From contig JAABTX010000031.1 of assembly GCA_011389655.1 (NCBI GenBank), forward strand, positions 1-33,860: a DNA stretch of 33,860 nucleotides. Direction: 5' to 3'. Each line of letters begins with the position of its first letter. Within the stretch, counting starts at the first letter, position 1. This document shows, piece by piece, positions 14,470-18,350 of this stretch. The notes under the pieces are model-generated. The model was given only the letters and a program-made list of their open reading frames with translations. It had not been told where the DNA came from and did no database searches. The translations under genes and the position numbers were made by a program. This stretch comes from Thioalkalivibrio sp. Lineage in GTDB: Bacteria; Pseudomonadota; Gammaproteobacteria; Ectothiorhodospirales; Ectothiorhodospiraceae.

Positions 14470-15170
14470 TCGCGCTGGAGACCGCGACCGGGGCCTGTTC
14501 GGCGGCGTTGTGGATCGACGGTGAACTGCGCTGGCTGATGGAACCGGAGGCCGCCCGGCGCCACGGCGAACTGGTGCTGGGGCAGGTCCAGCGCCTGCTG
14601 GCCGACGCCGGGCTTCGGCCCCCGGATCTGGATGCGGTGGCGGTCGGGCGGGGGCCCGGGGCATTCACGGGCGTCCGCCTGGGGCTGGGGACCGCCCAGG
14701 GTCTCGCCTTCGCCACCGGAATCCCGGTGGTGCCGGTGTCAACCCTGGCCGCACTGGCCCAGCAGGGTGCGGACCGCGGGGCGCGCCAGGTCCTCGCGGT
14801 GCTCGATGCGCGCATGCGGGAGGTGTACTGGTCGGTACTGCATACCGGTCCTGATGGTCTGGTGGCGCCTGCGGCCGAGTTCGTGGGCGCGCCGGGGGAC
14901 GTGCGCGTGAACTGGGCAACGGATTCGCGTCTGGCGCTCGGGAACGGCCTGTCCGCGTACCCGGAGCTCCAGCGTCGGCTGGGCCTGTCGGGTCCGCAGA
15001 CCGACCCCGCGGCGCTTCCCTGCGCTCGCGAGGTCGCAATGCTCGGGGCCGCAGCCCATGCCCGGGGCGAGGCGGTGCCGCCGGAGCAGGCGCGGCCCGT
15101 GTACCTGCGGGATCGGGTGGCGGAGCCCGCGCGGGCCCCGGCGGCCCCGATCCGCGGAAGCGGTGAATGA
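14460..15170 (+). CDS. tsaB: tRNA t6A threonylcarbamoyl transfer protein TsaB
   Basis: A 236-residue member of the ASKHA fold that pairs with TsaD and TsaE to make the t6A base at position 37 of ANN-decoding tRNAs. Conserved features are LALETAT-like RLIALETATGACSAAL at the start, HGELVLGQVQRLL, and the strongly conserved VGRGPGAFTGVRLGLGTAQGLA near residues 62-82. Length is typical (about 230). ATG 14460 overlaps the helicase stop by 10 bases, has AGAGGGG before it, and fits translational coupling. The tail after residue 210 (AEPARAPAAP) is low-complexity. tsaD and tsaE are not in this window. Confidence 0.95.
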   Translation: MRLIALETATGACSAALWIDGELRWLMEPEAARRHGELVLGQVQRLLADAGLRPPDLDAVAVGRGPGAFTGVRLGLGTAQGLAFATGIPVVPVSTLAALAQQGADRGARQVLAVLDARMREVYWSVLHTGPDGLVAPAAEFVGAPGDVRVNWATDSRLALGNGLSAYPELQRRLGLSGPQTDPAALPCAREVAMLGAAAHARGEAVPPEQARPVYLRDRVAEPARAPAAPIRGSGE

Positions 15171-16201
15171 TGTCGGCTGGCGCGCCGGAAGGGCTCCTGT
15201 ATCCCTGGGCGATTCCGCTTCGCGCAAGGCTCCGGGCCGAGCCGGAGGACTTTCGCGTCGACGAGATTGCGGCCACGGAGCCGGAGGGCGAGGGCGAACA
15301 CGTGTGGCTGCGGATCCGCAAGACCGGCCTCAACAGCGAGACGGTCGCCGAGTGGATTGCCAGGGTGGCGGGCGTGGCGCGTTCCGCCGTCGGCTACGCC
15401 GGCCGCAAGGACCGCCACGCGGTGACCACGCAGTGGTTCAGCGTGCAGCTGCCGGGACGCGCGGAGCCGGACTGGTCCGAAGGCCCGCCCGCCGGTGTCG
15501 AGGTCCTGACCCGTCGCCGCCACGGGCGCAAGCTGAAGACCGGACACCTGGCGGGAAACCGCTTCCACCTGCGGCTGCGCGATGTCCGCGGCGACCGGGC
15601 TGCCGCCGACACCCTGCTGGAGCGCATGCGGCAGCGGGGGCTGCCGCACTACTTCGGGGAACAGCGCTTCGGTCATGCGAACCTGGAACGGGCACGCATG
15701 TGGCTTGCGGGCCGTTCACGACCCCGGAACCGCAATCAGCGCAGTCTCTACCTCTCCGCGGCCCGGGCCGCGATCTTCAACGCGGTGCTCCGCAGGCGGG
15801 TGGAGGACGGCAGCTGGGACCAGCTCCTTTCCGGCGACGTCGCGAACCTGGACGGCAGCGGCAGCATCTTCCCGGTCGCGACGATCGACGGGACGCTGCG
15901 CGCACGATGCGAGCGTCTGGACCTCCATCCCACCGGCCCGCTCTGGGGTCATGGCGATCCGGGCACGGGCGGAACGGTGCGCGCCCTCGAGGCCGCCGCA
16001 GCCGATGCCTTCGGGGATCTGGCGCGTGGGCTGGAACGGGAGCAAATGCGGCCCGGGCGCCGGCCGCTTCGGATGCGTCCGGGACGGCTGGCGTGGTCCT
16101 GGGAGTCCGACGAGACCCTGGTGCTGGAGATCGAGCTGGGTCCGGGAGGGTATGCGACCGGCGTTGCCGGAGCGGTCGCCCTGACCTCGGCGGTTGACTG
16201 A
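15167..16201 (+). CDS. truD: tRNA pseudouridine(13) synthase TruD
   Basis: A 344-residue pseudouridine synthase that modifies U13 of tRNA-Glu. The catalytic aspartate is D82 in the AGRKDRHAVTTQWFSV block. Other family segments are EDFRVDEI (residues 27-34), HVWLRIRKTGLNSETV, GHLAGNRFHLRLRD, and YFGEQRFGHANLERA. Length matches E. coli TruD (349). Start is ATG at 15167, overlapping the tsaB stop as ATGA; the next codon is also ATG, so the start could be one residue later. In many gammaproteobacteria truD sits directly before surE; here three minus-strand genes come between. Confidence 0.95.
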   Translation: MMSAGAPEGLLYPWAIPLRARLRAEPEDFRVDEIAATEPEGEGEHVWLRIRKTGLNSETVAEWIARVAGVARSAVGYAGRKDRHAVTTQWFSVQLPGRAEPDWSEGPPAGVEVLTRRRHGRKLKTGHLAGNRFHLRLRDVRGDRAAADTLLERMRQRGLPHYFGEQRFGHANLERARMWLAGRSRPRNRNQRSLYLSAARAAIFNAVLRRRVEDGSWDQLLSGDVANLDGSGSIFPVATIDGTLRARCERLDLHPTGPLWGHGDPGTGGTVRALEAAAADAFGDLARGLEREQMRPGRRPLRMRPGRLAWSWESDETLVLEIELGPGGYATGVAGAVALTSAVD

Positions 16202-16231
16202 ACCGGGCCGGGAGGGAGTGGGCGCAGGGGT

Positions 16232-16684
16232 TCAGGAACCGTCCGGACCGGTACCTCGCGCCGCGGCCAGGGCGCGCTCCGCGCGCTCGGCCCGTGCCTC
16301 GGCCTCGACCCGGGCGGTGATGTCCTTCTGGATGCCGATGTAGTAGGTGAGCTGGTCGTCGTCGTTGTACACCGGCGTGATGGACAGTTCGTTCCAGAAC
16401 AGCGACCCGTCCTTGCGGTAGTTGCGCAGGACCACGCGGCAGGGATCGCCCTTTTCCAGTGCGGCGCGGATCTGGCGCACACCCTCCTGCTCGGTGTCGT
16501 CGCCCTGCAGGAAGCGGCAGTCCCGGTACAGGATCTCGTCCGAGCTGTATCCGGTCAGTTCCTCGAAGGCACGGTTCACGTAGATCAGGATGTTGTCGTG
16601 CCCTTCCTGTTCGGCGATCACGATGCCGTCATTGGAGGCATCGACCGCGAGGGCCAGGAGTTCTGCGTCAATCGATCGGGTCAT
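16232..16684 (-). CDS. Short LOV-domain blue-light photoreceptor
   Basis: A 150-residue protein made of one LOV (PAS) domain and a C-terminal helix, without an output domain. The flavin-adduct motif YRDCRFLQ places the photoactive cysteine at C56, and the signalling glutamine is Q119 in YIGIQKD; N34-like contacts RNYRKDGSLFWNELSITPV are conserved. It strongly resembles the short LOV proteins PpSB1-LOV and PpSB2-LOV of Pseudomonas putida, including the D before the cysteine. Of the four FMN-phosphate arginines of PpSB1, R57 and R73 are kept but the other two positions are T64 and V69. The final helix (about 122-145, VEAEARAERAERALAAAR) is coiled-coil-like and suits dimer formation. ATG 16684 gives the length seen in relatives. 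Confidence 0.9.
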   Translation of the reverse strand: MTRSIDAELLALAVDASNDGIVIAEQEGHDNILIYVNRAFEELTGYSSDEILYRDCRFLQGDDTEQEGVRQIRAALEKGDPCRVVLRNYRKDGSLFWNELSITPVYNDDDQLTYYIGIQKDITARVEAEARAERAERALAAARGTGPDGS

Positions 16685-16737
16685 GTTCCGGCTTGTTCGG
16701 GCACCATGCTCGGTGTCCTGAGGCGCACCAGTCCAGG

Positions 16738-16746
16738 ACTGTAGCA
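16738..16746 (-). promoter_or_regulatory. Candidate extended -10 box for the LOV gene
   Basis: On the minus strand TGC-TACAGT (16746 down to 16738) matches an extended -10 box, about 54 bases before the LOV start codon and after the hairpin of the upstream gene. No good -35 hexamer is visible at the normal distance, so this is a weak prediction. Confidence 0.28.
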
Positions 16747-16794
16747 CAGGCTGCGCATTCCGCGCGGAACCGCCGCCGTATCCCGGGCAAAGGA

Positions 16795-16820
16795 AGAGGG
16801 CTGCGCGCGCGCAGCCCTCT
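16795..16820 (-). terminator. Rho-independent-like terminator of the DUF3365 gene
   Basis: A perfect 26-base palindrome: AGAGGGCTGCGCG pairs with CGCGCAGCCCTCT. It begins 34 bases past the stop of the minus-strand heme protein gene, and on that strand is followed by TTCCTTTG, a short T-rich tail. It should end that transcript and separate it from the LOV gene. Confidence 0.75.
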
Positions 16821-16854
16821 GGCGGGAAAACGGTTGAACGTCCAGCCGCTGCCG

Positions 16855-17421
16855 CTACATCCGCTGGATGATCGTGAAGGCGCCGCGCACGTCTCCCTCG
16901 GAATAGCCGGTGGCCTGGTCCTCGGGGTACAGCCGCTCCAGCGCGTGCTGGATGTCCCCGTCCACCTCGCTGCCGTGACAGGTCAGGCAGACGCTGCCAG
17001 TGGGAATCGCCCGCATGAAACGGAAGACCTCTTCATCGCCTTCCTGCACGGTTTCATGGTAGGCCAGCTCGGATGCCGGTACGCCCTGCGCGCGGCGTGC
17101 CTCGAAGTGCTCGAGCACGGCCCGCTCCCACTCGTCGGGGGCATTGTCCGGGTTGCGAAGCTTCAGGCTGGTGCGTCCGACGCTCCAGCCGGTCTCGGCC
17201 GAGATGTCTTCGGCGATCTGGGGAGCGACCTGCTGGCATACGGAGATCGCCTCGGTCGGGCCGCCCTGCTGCATGGCCTCCATCAGATGGCCCTGCAGGG
17301 TCCCGGCGAAGTCCTGGATCGCCTCCTGGCTCGCCGCAATGCGTTCATCGACGGATTCGGCGTGTGCCGGACCGACGGCGGCGAGAGCCAGTGCAACGGA
17401 AATCATCTTCCATCGGTTCAT
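16855..17421 (-). CDS. Periplasmic monoheme DUF3365 (Tll0287-like) protein
   Basis: A 188-residue exported protein with a signal peptide (MNRWKMISVALALAAVGPAHA) and a single CLTCH heme c motif near residue 147, in the segment PTGSVCLTCHGSEVDGD. The preceding helices with SVCQQVAPQIAEDISAETGWSVGRTSLKLRNPDNAPDEWE (quoted in part: GWSVGRTSLKLRNP) and the closing GDVRGAFTI are typical of DUF3365, a PAS-like heme-binding domain suspected to sense redox or gases. The start ATG 17421 has GAGGG about 9 bases upstream. It has its own terminator at 16795-16820 and a palindromic promoter-region site at 17455-17475. Electron-transfer versus sensor function cannot be decided here. Confidence 0.88.
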   Translation of the reverse strand: MNRWKMISVALALAAVGPAHAESVDERIAASQEAIQDFAGTLQGHLMEAMQQGGPTEAISVCQQVAPQIAEDISAETGWSVGRTSLKLRNPDNAPDEWERAVLEHFEARRAQGVPASELAYHETVQEGDEEVFRFMRAIPTGSVCLTCHGSEVDGDIQHALERLYPEDQATGYSEGDVRGAFTIIQRM

Positions 17422-17810
17422 CTTTGCAGCCCTCAATTTGGGTTGTTCTGCCATTTTGTACAGCAGTTGTACAAATACTGCATCGTATTTCCCTTTCTTG
17501 CAAGCGCCGGGAGCGCGGAATACGTACCGGGATCCCGCGAGCGGCGCCAGGGAGTACGCGCCATGAGGGAGACACCGGTGAATCAGGGTTTGCCGGTCTC
17601 GCGCGGCTGCAGCTTCGCCCGTCACGCCGCAAGCGCCGGTATCAATCTACACACTACGGATAATGGCGCTTGCCCGCAACGCCGTCCGGGTCTTCCCGGA
17701 CTCCGGATATGTCCTCTGCGGTGAGGTGGAGGAACCCGGCCTGCCGTGAAGGGAAGGCGTCAGCGGGGGAGGGGGCCTTTATTGTCAGGGGTGGTGGAGG
17801 GCCATGGCAG
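17422..17810. other. 389-base gap between DUF3365 and Smr genes
   Basis: No gene is supported here. The minus-strand promoter of the DUF3365 gene lies near the left end, with the 17455-17475 palindrome. Near 17658-17664 there is a GGATAAT -10-like box on the plus strand, followed by two adjacent hairpins: GGCG-C-TT/AACGCC (17665-17683) and GTCCGGG/CCCGGAC around TCTT (17684-17701). No plus-strand gene follows for nearly 800 bases, so a small RNA is possible but unproven. Confidence 0.35.
17455..17475. promoter_or_regulatory. Palindromic operator-like site TTTGTAC-N7-GTACAAA
   Basis: TTTGTAC (17455-17461) and GTACAAA (17469-17475) are exact inverted arms around AGCAGTT. The site lies 34 bases before the start codon of the DUF3365 gene, in an AT-richer patch of an otherwise GC-rich gap. 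Arm length and spacing fit a dimeric regulator, but the half-site does not match FNR, Fur or CRP sites that I know. Confidence 0.5.
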
Positions 17811-18350
17811 TCAGGACGCGCGGCGCAGCAGCACGTACACCGCTCCGGTGCCGCCATCGGCCGGCGGCGCGGAGCAGAAGGCGAGGACATCATCGCGCTG
17901 CCGGAGCCAGTGATCCAGCAGTCCCTTCAGTACCGGTCCCTGCTGTCGCGACCGCAGCCCCTTTCCATGCACCACCCGCACACACAGGTGGCCGGCCGAG
18001 CGTGCGTCGTTGAGGAATTCGGCGACGGTCCTGCGTGCCTCGCCGGCGAAGAGACCGTGCAGGTCCAGCTCCTCCTGCACGCGATACTGGCCGCGTTTCA
18101 GGTTCCGGAATGCCCGGTGGCTGACCCCGGGCCGCATGAAGCGCAGTTCGTCCCCGGGTTGCAGGTCGGTGGCATTCACCGGATCGCTGAGCAGGTCGTT
18201 CAGCACCTCCCGTTCATCCTCGCGTCGCTTGCCGGCGCGCGCGCTGGGAGGCGGAGGGTGTACCTCCGCCCGATCGTGCTCCAGGCGCCTGACCGCGCCG
18301 ACGGCCCGCAGGAAGTGTCCGATGTCGTTTGGGTCTTCGTCCGATTTCAT
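17811..18350 (-). CDS. Smr-domain protein (SmrA-like nuclease)
   Basis: A 179-residue stand-alone Smr protein. The Smr domain covers about residues 90-178, with LDLHG (about residue 95), VRVVHGKGLRS, and GGTGAVYVLL. The N-terminal part is charged and partly proline-rich (EVHPPPPSARAGKRRED). Stand-alone Smr proteins are structure-specific DNA nicking enzymes or, for SmrB, mRNA nucleases at collided ribosomes. The C-terminal FCSAPPADGGTGAVYVLL form and HGKG motif suggest the SmrA (YdaL) side, but the substrate cannot be settled here. Start ATG 18350 is preceded by GGAAG. It is divergent from surE, 137 bases away. Confidence 0.88.
   Translation of the reverse strand: MKSDEDPNDIGHFLRAVGAVRRLEHDRAEVHPPPPSARAGKRREDEREVLNDLLSDPVNATDLQPGDELRFMRPGVSHRAFRNLKRGQYRVQEELDLHGLFAGEARRTVAEFLNDARSAGHLCVRVVHGKGLRSRQQGPVLKGLLDHWLRQRDDVLAFCSAPPADGGTGAVYVLLRRAS

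Follow-up and report, generated by a model that had tools for sequence, protein, structure and literature searches.

A Short LOV Photoreceptor in Thioalkalivibrio and Its Putative LitR-Family Partner

The stretch of Thioalkalivibrio sp. DNA analysed here (33,860 nucleotides, referred to as the window) encodes a PpSB-type short LOV protein. This protein quite probably serves as an anti-repressor of a LitR-family regulator encoded on contig C329 of the same genome, freeing genes that carry TGTACA operators in blue light. In the proposed circuit, blue light would produce an adduct between C56 and the flavin, the adduct would, by way of Q119 and the terminal helices, cause the dimer to rearrange, and the lit LOV protein would bind the LitR repressor, which would then leave its 11-bp-phased TGTACA operators. 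The genes released would be litR itself, a haem-Cache gene next to lov, and the divergent C13 genes (GPx-DUF3429-FolE on one side, FAD-oxidoreductase-DUF1365-CFA synthase-MFS-chalcone isomerase-like on the other), together a putative photo-oxidative stress response. As two of the four arginines that bind the phosphate are missing, the adduct would decay within minutes in the dark, so that repression would soon be restored. We infer the photochemistry, its rate, the binding of LOV to LitR, and the direction of regulation.

Thioalkalivibrio are sulfur-oxidising bacteria. A receptor thought to be partnerless would, through this reading, become part of a specific and testable circuit in soda-lake bacteria, outside the pseudomonads in which LOV-LitR signaling was worked out. 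In Pseudomonas mendocina, illuminated PmSB-LOV is reported to bind the class II LitR protein PmlR2 and to inhibit its DNA binding (PMC9758184, 2022). The preliminary description of the window had called the partner of its LOV protein unknown; for the family this is outdated by that publication, and both a homologue of the published partner and its type of operator are found in the present genome. Our literature searches, which left subscription papers mostly outside, found no work on short LOV proteins in Thioalkalivibrio and, judged by titles and abstract openings, nothing relevant on LitR in this genus. A red-light diguanylate cyclase, TsPadC, is listed as coming from a Thioalkalivibrio in a review (PMC8846402).

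The LOV Protein and Its Predicted Photocycle

The minus-strand translation of the lov gene (Table 1) has C56, R57, T64, V69, R73, and Q119 at the expected positions, and the LOV motif is absent by eye from the one plus-strand frame of 16232-16684 that was translated. The protein matches PAS_9 in Pfam (E 9.8e-25), and its top relatives of solved structure are PF5-LOV (7r5n, E 3.3e-58) and PpSB2-LOV (7a6p, E 6e-58). PpSB2-LOV also ranked first in a Foldseek search (E 6.5e-17) with a moderately confident AlphaFold2 model (mean pLDDT 75.7), which places helices at residues 7-16 (N-terminal) and 123-144 (J-alpha). No effector domain is fused within its 150 residues, and identity to the compared segments is 70% for PpSB1-LOV and 66% for PpSB2-LOV. 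A MAFFT alignment with these segments is gapless over the stretch with C56, T64, and V69, so that T64 corresponds to R61 of PpSB1-LOV and H61 of PpSB2-LOV, and V69 to R66 and I66 respectively; R57 and R73 are retained as the counterparts of R54 and R70. The preliminary description had thus been right in proposing a stand-alone LOV protein close to the short LOV proteins of P. putida, with C56 and Q119 kept, no output domain, and the residue equivalences just given.

Table 1. Coordinates of features in and around the lov gene (positions of the window).
Feature	Position	Strand	Basis
Short LOV photoreceptor gene, 150 aa	16235..16684 (stop codon 16232-16234)	minus	Translation, Pfam, structure matches, alignment
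Codon of photoactive cysteine C56	16517..16519	minus	Residue 56; codon place counted from start at 16684
Codon of T64 (R61 in PpSB1-LOV, H61 in PpSB2-LOV)	16493..16495	minus	Alignment; counted from start at 16684
Codon of V69 (R66 in PpSB1-LOV, I66 in PpSB2-LOV)	16478..16480	minus	Alignment; counted from start at 16684
Codon of signaling glutamine Q119	16328..16330	minus	Alignment; counted from start at 16684
Extended -10-like element TGCTACAGT, inferred separate LOV promoter	16738..16746	minus	Sequence pattern
Terminator-like hairpin between haem gene and lov	16796..16819	minus	11-bp stem
Tll0287/DUF3365-like stand-alone c-type-haem Cache protein, 188 aa	16855..17421	minus	PF11845, E 1.2e-27; start codon chosen by analyst
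LitR-type operator TGTACA-ACTGC-TGTACA	17457..17473	minus	Exact match; 36-52 bp upstream of haem gene start
smr, conserved neighbor	17811..18350	minus	PF01713; synteny
truD, conserved convergent neighbor	15167..16201	plus	PF01142; synteny

In an alignment of 31 sequences (the window LOV and 30 from the best 80 of 564 relatives), C56 within its CRFLQ motif is invariant, as are Q60, N88, N98, and Q119. The last four are the flavin-contacting or signaling residues described for PpSB1/W619_1 (Q57, N85, N95, and Q116; PMC5314338), shifted by +3. Since an orthologue (E 8.2e-73 or better) is present in 30 of 30 Thioalkalivibrio genomes in a search of 47 family genomes (the order-level search set consists of the same 47), and dN/dS against eight orthologues is low (~0.02-0.15, purifying selection), lov is not a chance open reading frame. 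The receptor is unremarkable within its family, a short LOV protein of PpSB type predicted to bind FMN.

Three side observations concern lov and similar genes. On the plus strand, ARAGORN places a tRNA-Pro (cgg) at 16206-16306, where it overlaps lov at the 3′ end; in DNA this rich in GC, the call is probably spurious. The same genome, a 367-contig assembly, encodes another stand-alone LOV-like PAS protein of 127 aa (G000:C338:1888-2298; L110:1915-2298, minus strand), which we rejected as a second LOV because it has proline at the place of the photoactive cysteine; it is presumably no photoreceptor. At E ≤ 1e-25, 16 of the 47 family genomes contain a further LOV-like match that is more distant (41-47% identity, open frames of 154-216 aa); the window genome has none at this threshold.

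For the dark recovery, PpSB1-LOV (R/R at positions 61 and 66) and PpSB2-LOV (H/I) are reported to have tau values of ~2400 and ~2 min respectively, and the substitution I66R slows PpSB2 ~7-fold (PMC13322254). R66I brings PpSB1 to 23 min (PMC6047819), mutation of both R61 and R66 makes recovery 280-fold faster, and W619_1-LOV, with all four arginines, takes 460 min (PMC5314338). The window LOV, like PpSB2-LOV, has arginine at neither position, so that minutes are the best guess; we consider such a recovery likely as predicted from homologues and mutants, among which, as far as measured proteins were compared, the T/V pair is absent. The fast, PpSB2-like recovery predicted in the preliminary description agrees with the residue equivalences and with most published kinetics; a caution comes from PmSB-LOV, whose full recovery of 56 min its authors describe as relatively slow and PpSB1-LOV-like (PMC9758184, which quotes 109 min for PpSB1-LOV and 0.5 min for PpSB2-LOV). 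A LOV protein of equal length from another P. mendocina strain, found among the best 80 of 564 relatives, has an R/L pair, and PmSB-LOV itself is probably also without R66; loss of R66 alone therefore need not give a PpSB2-like rate.

The residue pair varies within the genus, with T/R in 12 of the 30 genomes, T/V in 11, H/V, T/I, and N/V in two each, and R/A in one; R73 is replaced by cysteine in a single sequence (L017). Threonine occupies the first position in 25 of 30 genus genomes vs. none of the 69 loci outside Thioalkalivibrio among the best 80 of 564 relatives, where 56 have R/L, seven have H first, and one has C first; all six sister-genus LOV sequences have R/L. Threonine at this position thus looks genus-specific, while the loss of arginine there does not. 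The V69/R69 alternatives provide naturally occurring variants of a single kinetically relevant residue, with which the relation of adduct lifetime to lifestyle can be asked.

The LitR-Family Regulator and Its Association with LOV

Two proteins of the window genome match MerR_1 at E ≤ 1e-4. One of them, a 340-aa protein encoded on contig C329, is homologous over its full length to LitR proteins encoded close to LOV genes in Pseudomonas and related bacteria (hhalign probability 100, E 6.3e-49, 299 columns, 27% identity), and contains a MerR helix-turn-helix (HTH) domain (PF13411, E 4.9e-15). We refer to it as LitR-family and class II-like, because its operator keeps the half-site but has N5 spacing, a departure from the class II consensus T(G/A)TACA-N12-TGTA(C/T)A.

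Among the best 80 of 564 LOV relatives, 69 loci lie outside Thioalkalivibrio; 48 of these have litR in their flanks (up to 6 kb), and the remaining genomes (21 of 21) have a LitR match elsewhere. In nearly complete family genomes, LitR is present in 29 of 29 with this LOV vs. five of nine without it (Fisher 0.0017; the LitR match in G006 spans residues 2-97 only). Among 183 further genomes sampled across the class, LitR at E ≤ 1e-25 occurs in three of five LOV genomes, adjacent in two, vs. 24 of 178 others (p 0.024), and the first count may be low since this threshold missed the LitR of the window genome itself. Both Fisher values are optimistic, as the genomes are related and not independent. 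Of 11 sister-genus genomes that have both litR and the FAD-oxidoreductase gene, 10 have the two 2-7 kb apart; in the remaining one (G041), it is lov that lies ~2.5 kb from the FAD-oxidoreductase gene.

Several features count against the circuit. In the window genome, lov and litR lie on separate contigs, no operator precedes lov, and lov appears transcriptionally separated from the haem gene; moreover, the association in the class-wide sample is incomplete, the operator spacing departs from the published N12, and the haem gene lacks an operator in G013, G014, and the sister-genus loci. The first two features, and the LitR-bearing genomes without this LOV counted above (five of nine in the family, 24 of 178 in the class), would also fit an alternative in which LOV works as a photoreceptor with some other partner, the LitR regulon is independent, and the target gene is merely adjacent. 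We regard this as unlikely, though the best of the alternatives, given the direct partnership published for P. mendocina (PMC9758184), the proximity of litR to most of the 69 LOV loci compared outside Thioalkalivibrio, and its presence in every nearly complete family genome with this LOV.

A partnership of LOV with LitR is also preferred to a scheme in which LitR is itself the light sensor, using adenosyl-B12 (class I, CarH-like), and LOV has an accessory role, which we consider highly improbable. In CarH, TGTACA-like repeats stand in an 11-bp phase, which the operators described below resemble, and the HTH of LitR matches the CarH model over residues 18-96 (E 9.1e-17, under the model cut-off). 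However, Pfam detects no B12-binding domain in the C329 protein up to E 1, and W-x9-EH, a hallmark of CarH, is found in none of 23 Thioalkalivibrio LitR rows, on which grounds LitR was rejected as a B12 sensor. The motif DxHxxG occurs in four of these 23 rows, two of which are the same own protein, where by eye it falls in the linker after the HTH. The P. mendocina relative is likewise without a Pfam B12 domain up to E 0.001, although one is reported for PmlR2 (PMC9758184).

Operators and Candidate Target Genes

The exact pattern TGTACA-N5-TGTACA occurs at only two places in the window genome, the start of litR and the site upstream of the haem gene (Table 1), while the control pattern gave none. 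Allowing one mismatch adds a single place, on C13, with three half-sites, dividing the GPx-DUF3429-FolE genes from those beginning with the FAD-oxidoreductase (Pfam). Where compared by Pfam (FAD oxidoreductase, FolE, and CFA synthase), the C13 genes resemble the published light-inducible LitR set, which includes UfaM, FAD oxidoreductase, FolE, photolyase, and cryptochrome (PMC9758184).

Across the family, 27 of 47 genomes contain exact sites, with zero control matches in each. Operators with at most two mismatches precede litR in 29 of 29 regions (26 genus, three sister-genus) and the FAD-oxidoreductase gene in 30 of 30 (26 and four respectively); out of 40 litR and 42 FAD-oxidoreductase matches, the 30 best loci were scored, less one litR locus (L082) that lacks its N-terminus. 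For the haem gene, they are found in 29 of 37 regions, five of which are second loci (L043-L047, four from genomes already scored). Counted per genome, this corresponds to 26 of 28 genus genomes (all but G013 and G014; L013 and L017 had no scorable region) and none of five sister-genus loci. At the same stringency, control regions upstream of smr (0/11), surE (0/11), and truD (0/33) lack operators, as does the region upstream of lov itself (0/29), and shuffled upstream regions gave at most 0.2 operators per set. At the level of sequence, then, the receptor and its residues, the regulator, the operators, and their conservation are in place.

With a relaxed half-site, the spacing in the litR regions is N5 in 24 of 29, and in 48 Pseudomonas-type litR regions it is N5 in four and N12 in fewer than two; as those four share it, N5 was rejected as a mark of Thioalkalivibrio alone. 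The litR operator (L048:2837-2853) overlaps the predicted litR start codon, which suggests either tight self-repression or a later start.

Exact sites in other genomes were also observed near other genes. Some lie near a CheY-type gene (L191, L195, L197, L199, L200, L215-L217, L219), which a STAS gene accompanies in seven loci, and others near a PAS-MCP gene (L192-L194, L201, L203, L209, L210, L213, L214); these loci were grouped by BLAST, Pfam was applied to L192 and L195 alone, and L210 belongs to a sister genus. A light control of motility is possible from these sites. In ten further loci (L196, L198, L202, L204, L205, L207, L208, L211, L212, L218), exact sites precede a priA-type gene by 266-288 bp (Pfam on L196 only).

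The protein encoded by the haem gene has a CLTCH (CXXCH) motif at residue 145 and, by eye, an apparent signal peptide, and the order smr-haem gene-lov with convergent truD is present in most genus loci. We rejected a single operon of the haem gene and lov under the operator, as a terminator-like hairpin and a separate -10-like element stand between them, with read-through possible. Such a hairpin is found in 21 of 29 genus loci (0.2 in shuffles), and 22 of 29 have GTG[CA]TA no more than 130 nt ahead of lov (0.9 in shuffles); both counts follow our own rules, laxer than a sigma-70 consensus/terminator scan of 16150-17700 that returned zero promoters and zero terminators, and cover 29 of the 30 genus loci, L013 being too short. 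From these elements, lov is probably transcribed from its own promoter, apart from the haem gene.

Proteins of the PF11845 type are c-type-haem Cache domains, and redox-related roles have been proposed as probable for the stand-alone ones (PMC12889525). Despite this neighbor, a LOV domain that mainly reports redox state or flavin, its light signaling vestigial, is the least credible reading, as C56 is invariant in all 31 aligned sequences and selection is strong.

Comparison with Known Systems

The window LOV shares with PpSB1-LOV and PpSB2-LOV the stand-alone architecture, the terminal helices, the cysteine and glutamine, and two phosphate arginines (R57 and R73), and differs where it has T64/V69 instead of R/R or H/I. 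With CarH and class I LitR, the C329 regulator has the MerR-type HTH in common but not a detectable B12-binding domain. The haem protein is stand-alone with a CXXCH motif, similar to the Tll0287/DUF3365 sCache_haem proteins (PMC12889525); a difference is that its gene adjoins a LOV gene and stands behind a LitR-type operator, a link absent from the titles and abstract openings of the papers listed for Tll0287 or DUF3365.

The closest comparison is with PmSB-LOV/PmlR2 of P. mendocina, which likewise combines a short LOV protein and a LitR-family MerR regulator with TGTACA half-sites, and has similar targets, namely an FAD oxidoreductase, FolE, and a CFA-synthase-family protein (UfaM in PMC9758184). 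In contrast to the published N12 spacing (PMC9758184), the spacing here is N5, lov and litR are not adjacent, and the haem-Cache gene is among the predicted targets. New in the present analysis are thus a probable partner, its operators and target genes, and a layout unlike the published one. More tentatively, Thioalkalivibrio may have rewired LOV-LitR, with an 11-bp operator phase, scattered genes, a light-released haem protein, in some species chemotaxis promoters (STAS-CheY, PAS-MCP), and a photocycle retuned inside the genus at V69/R69.
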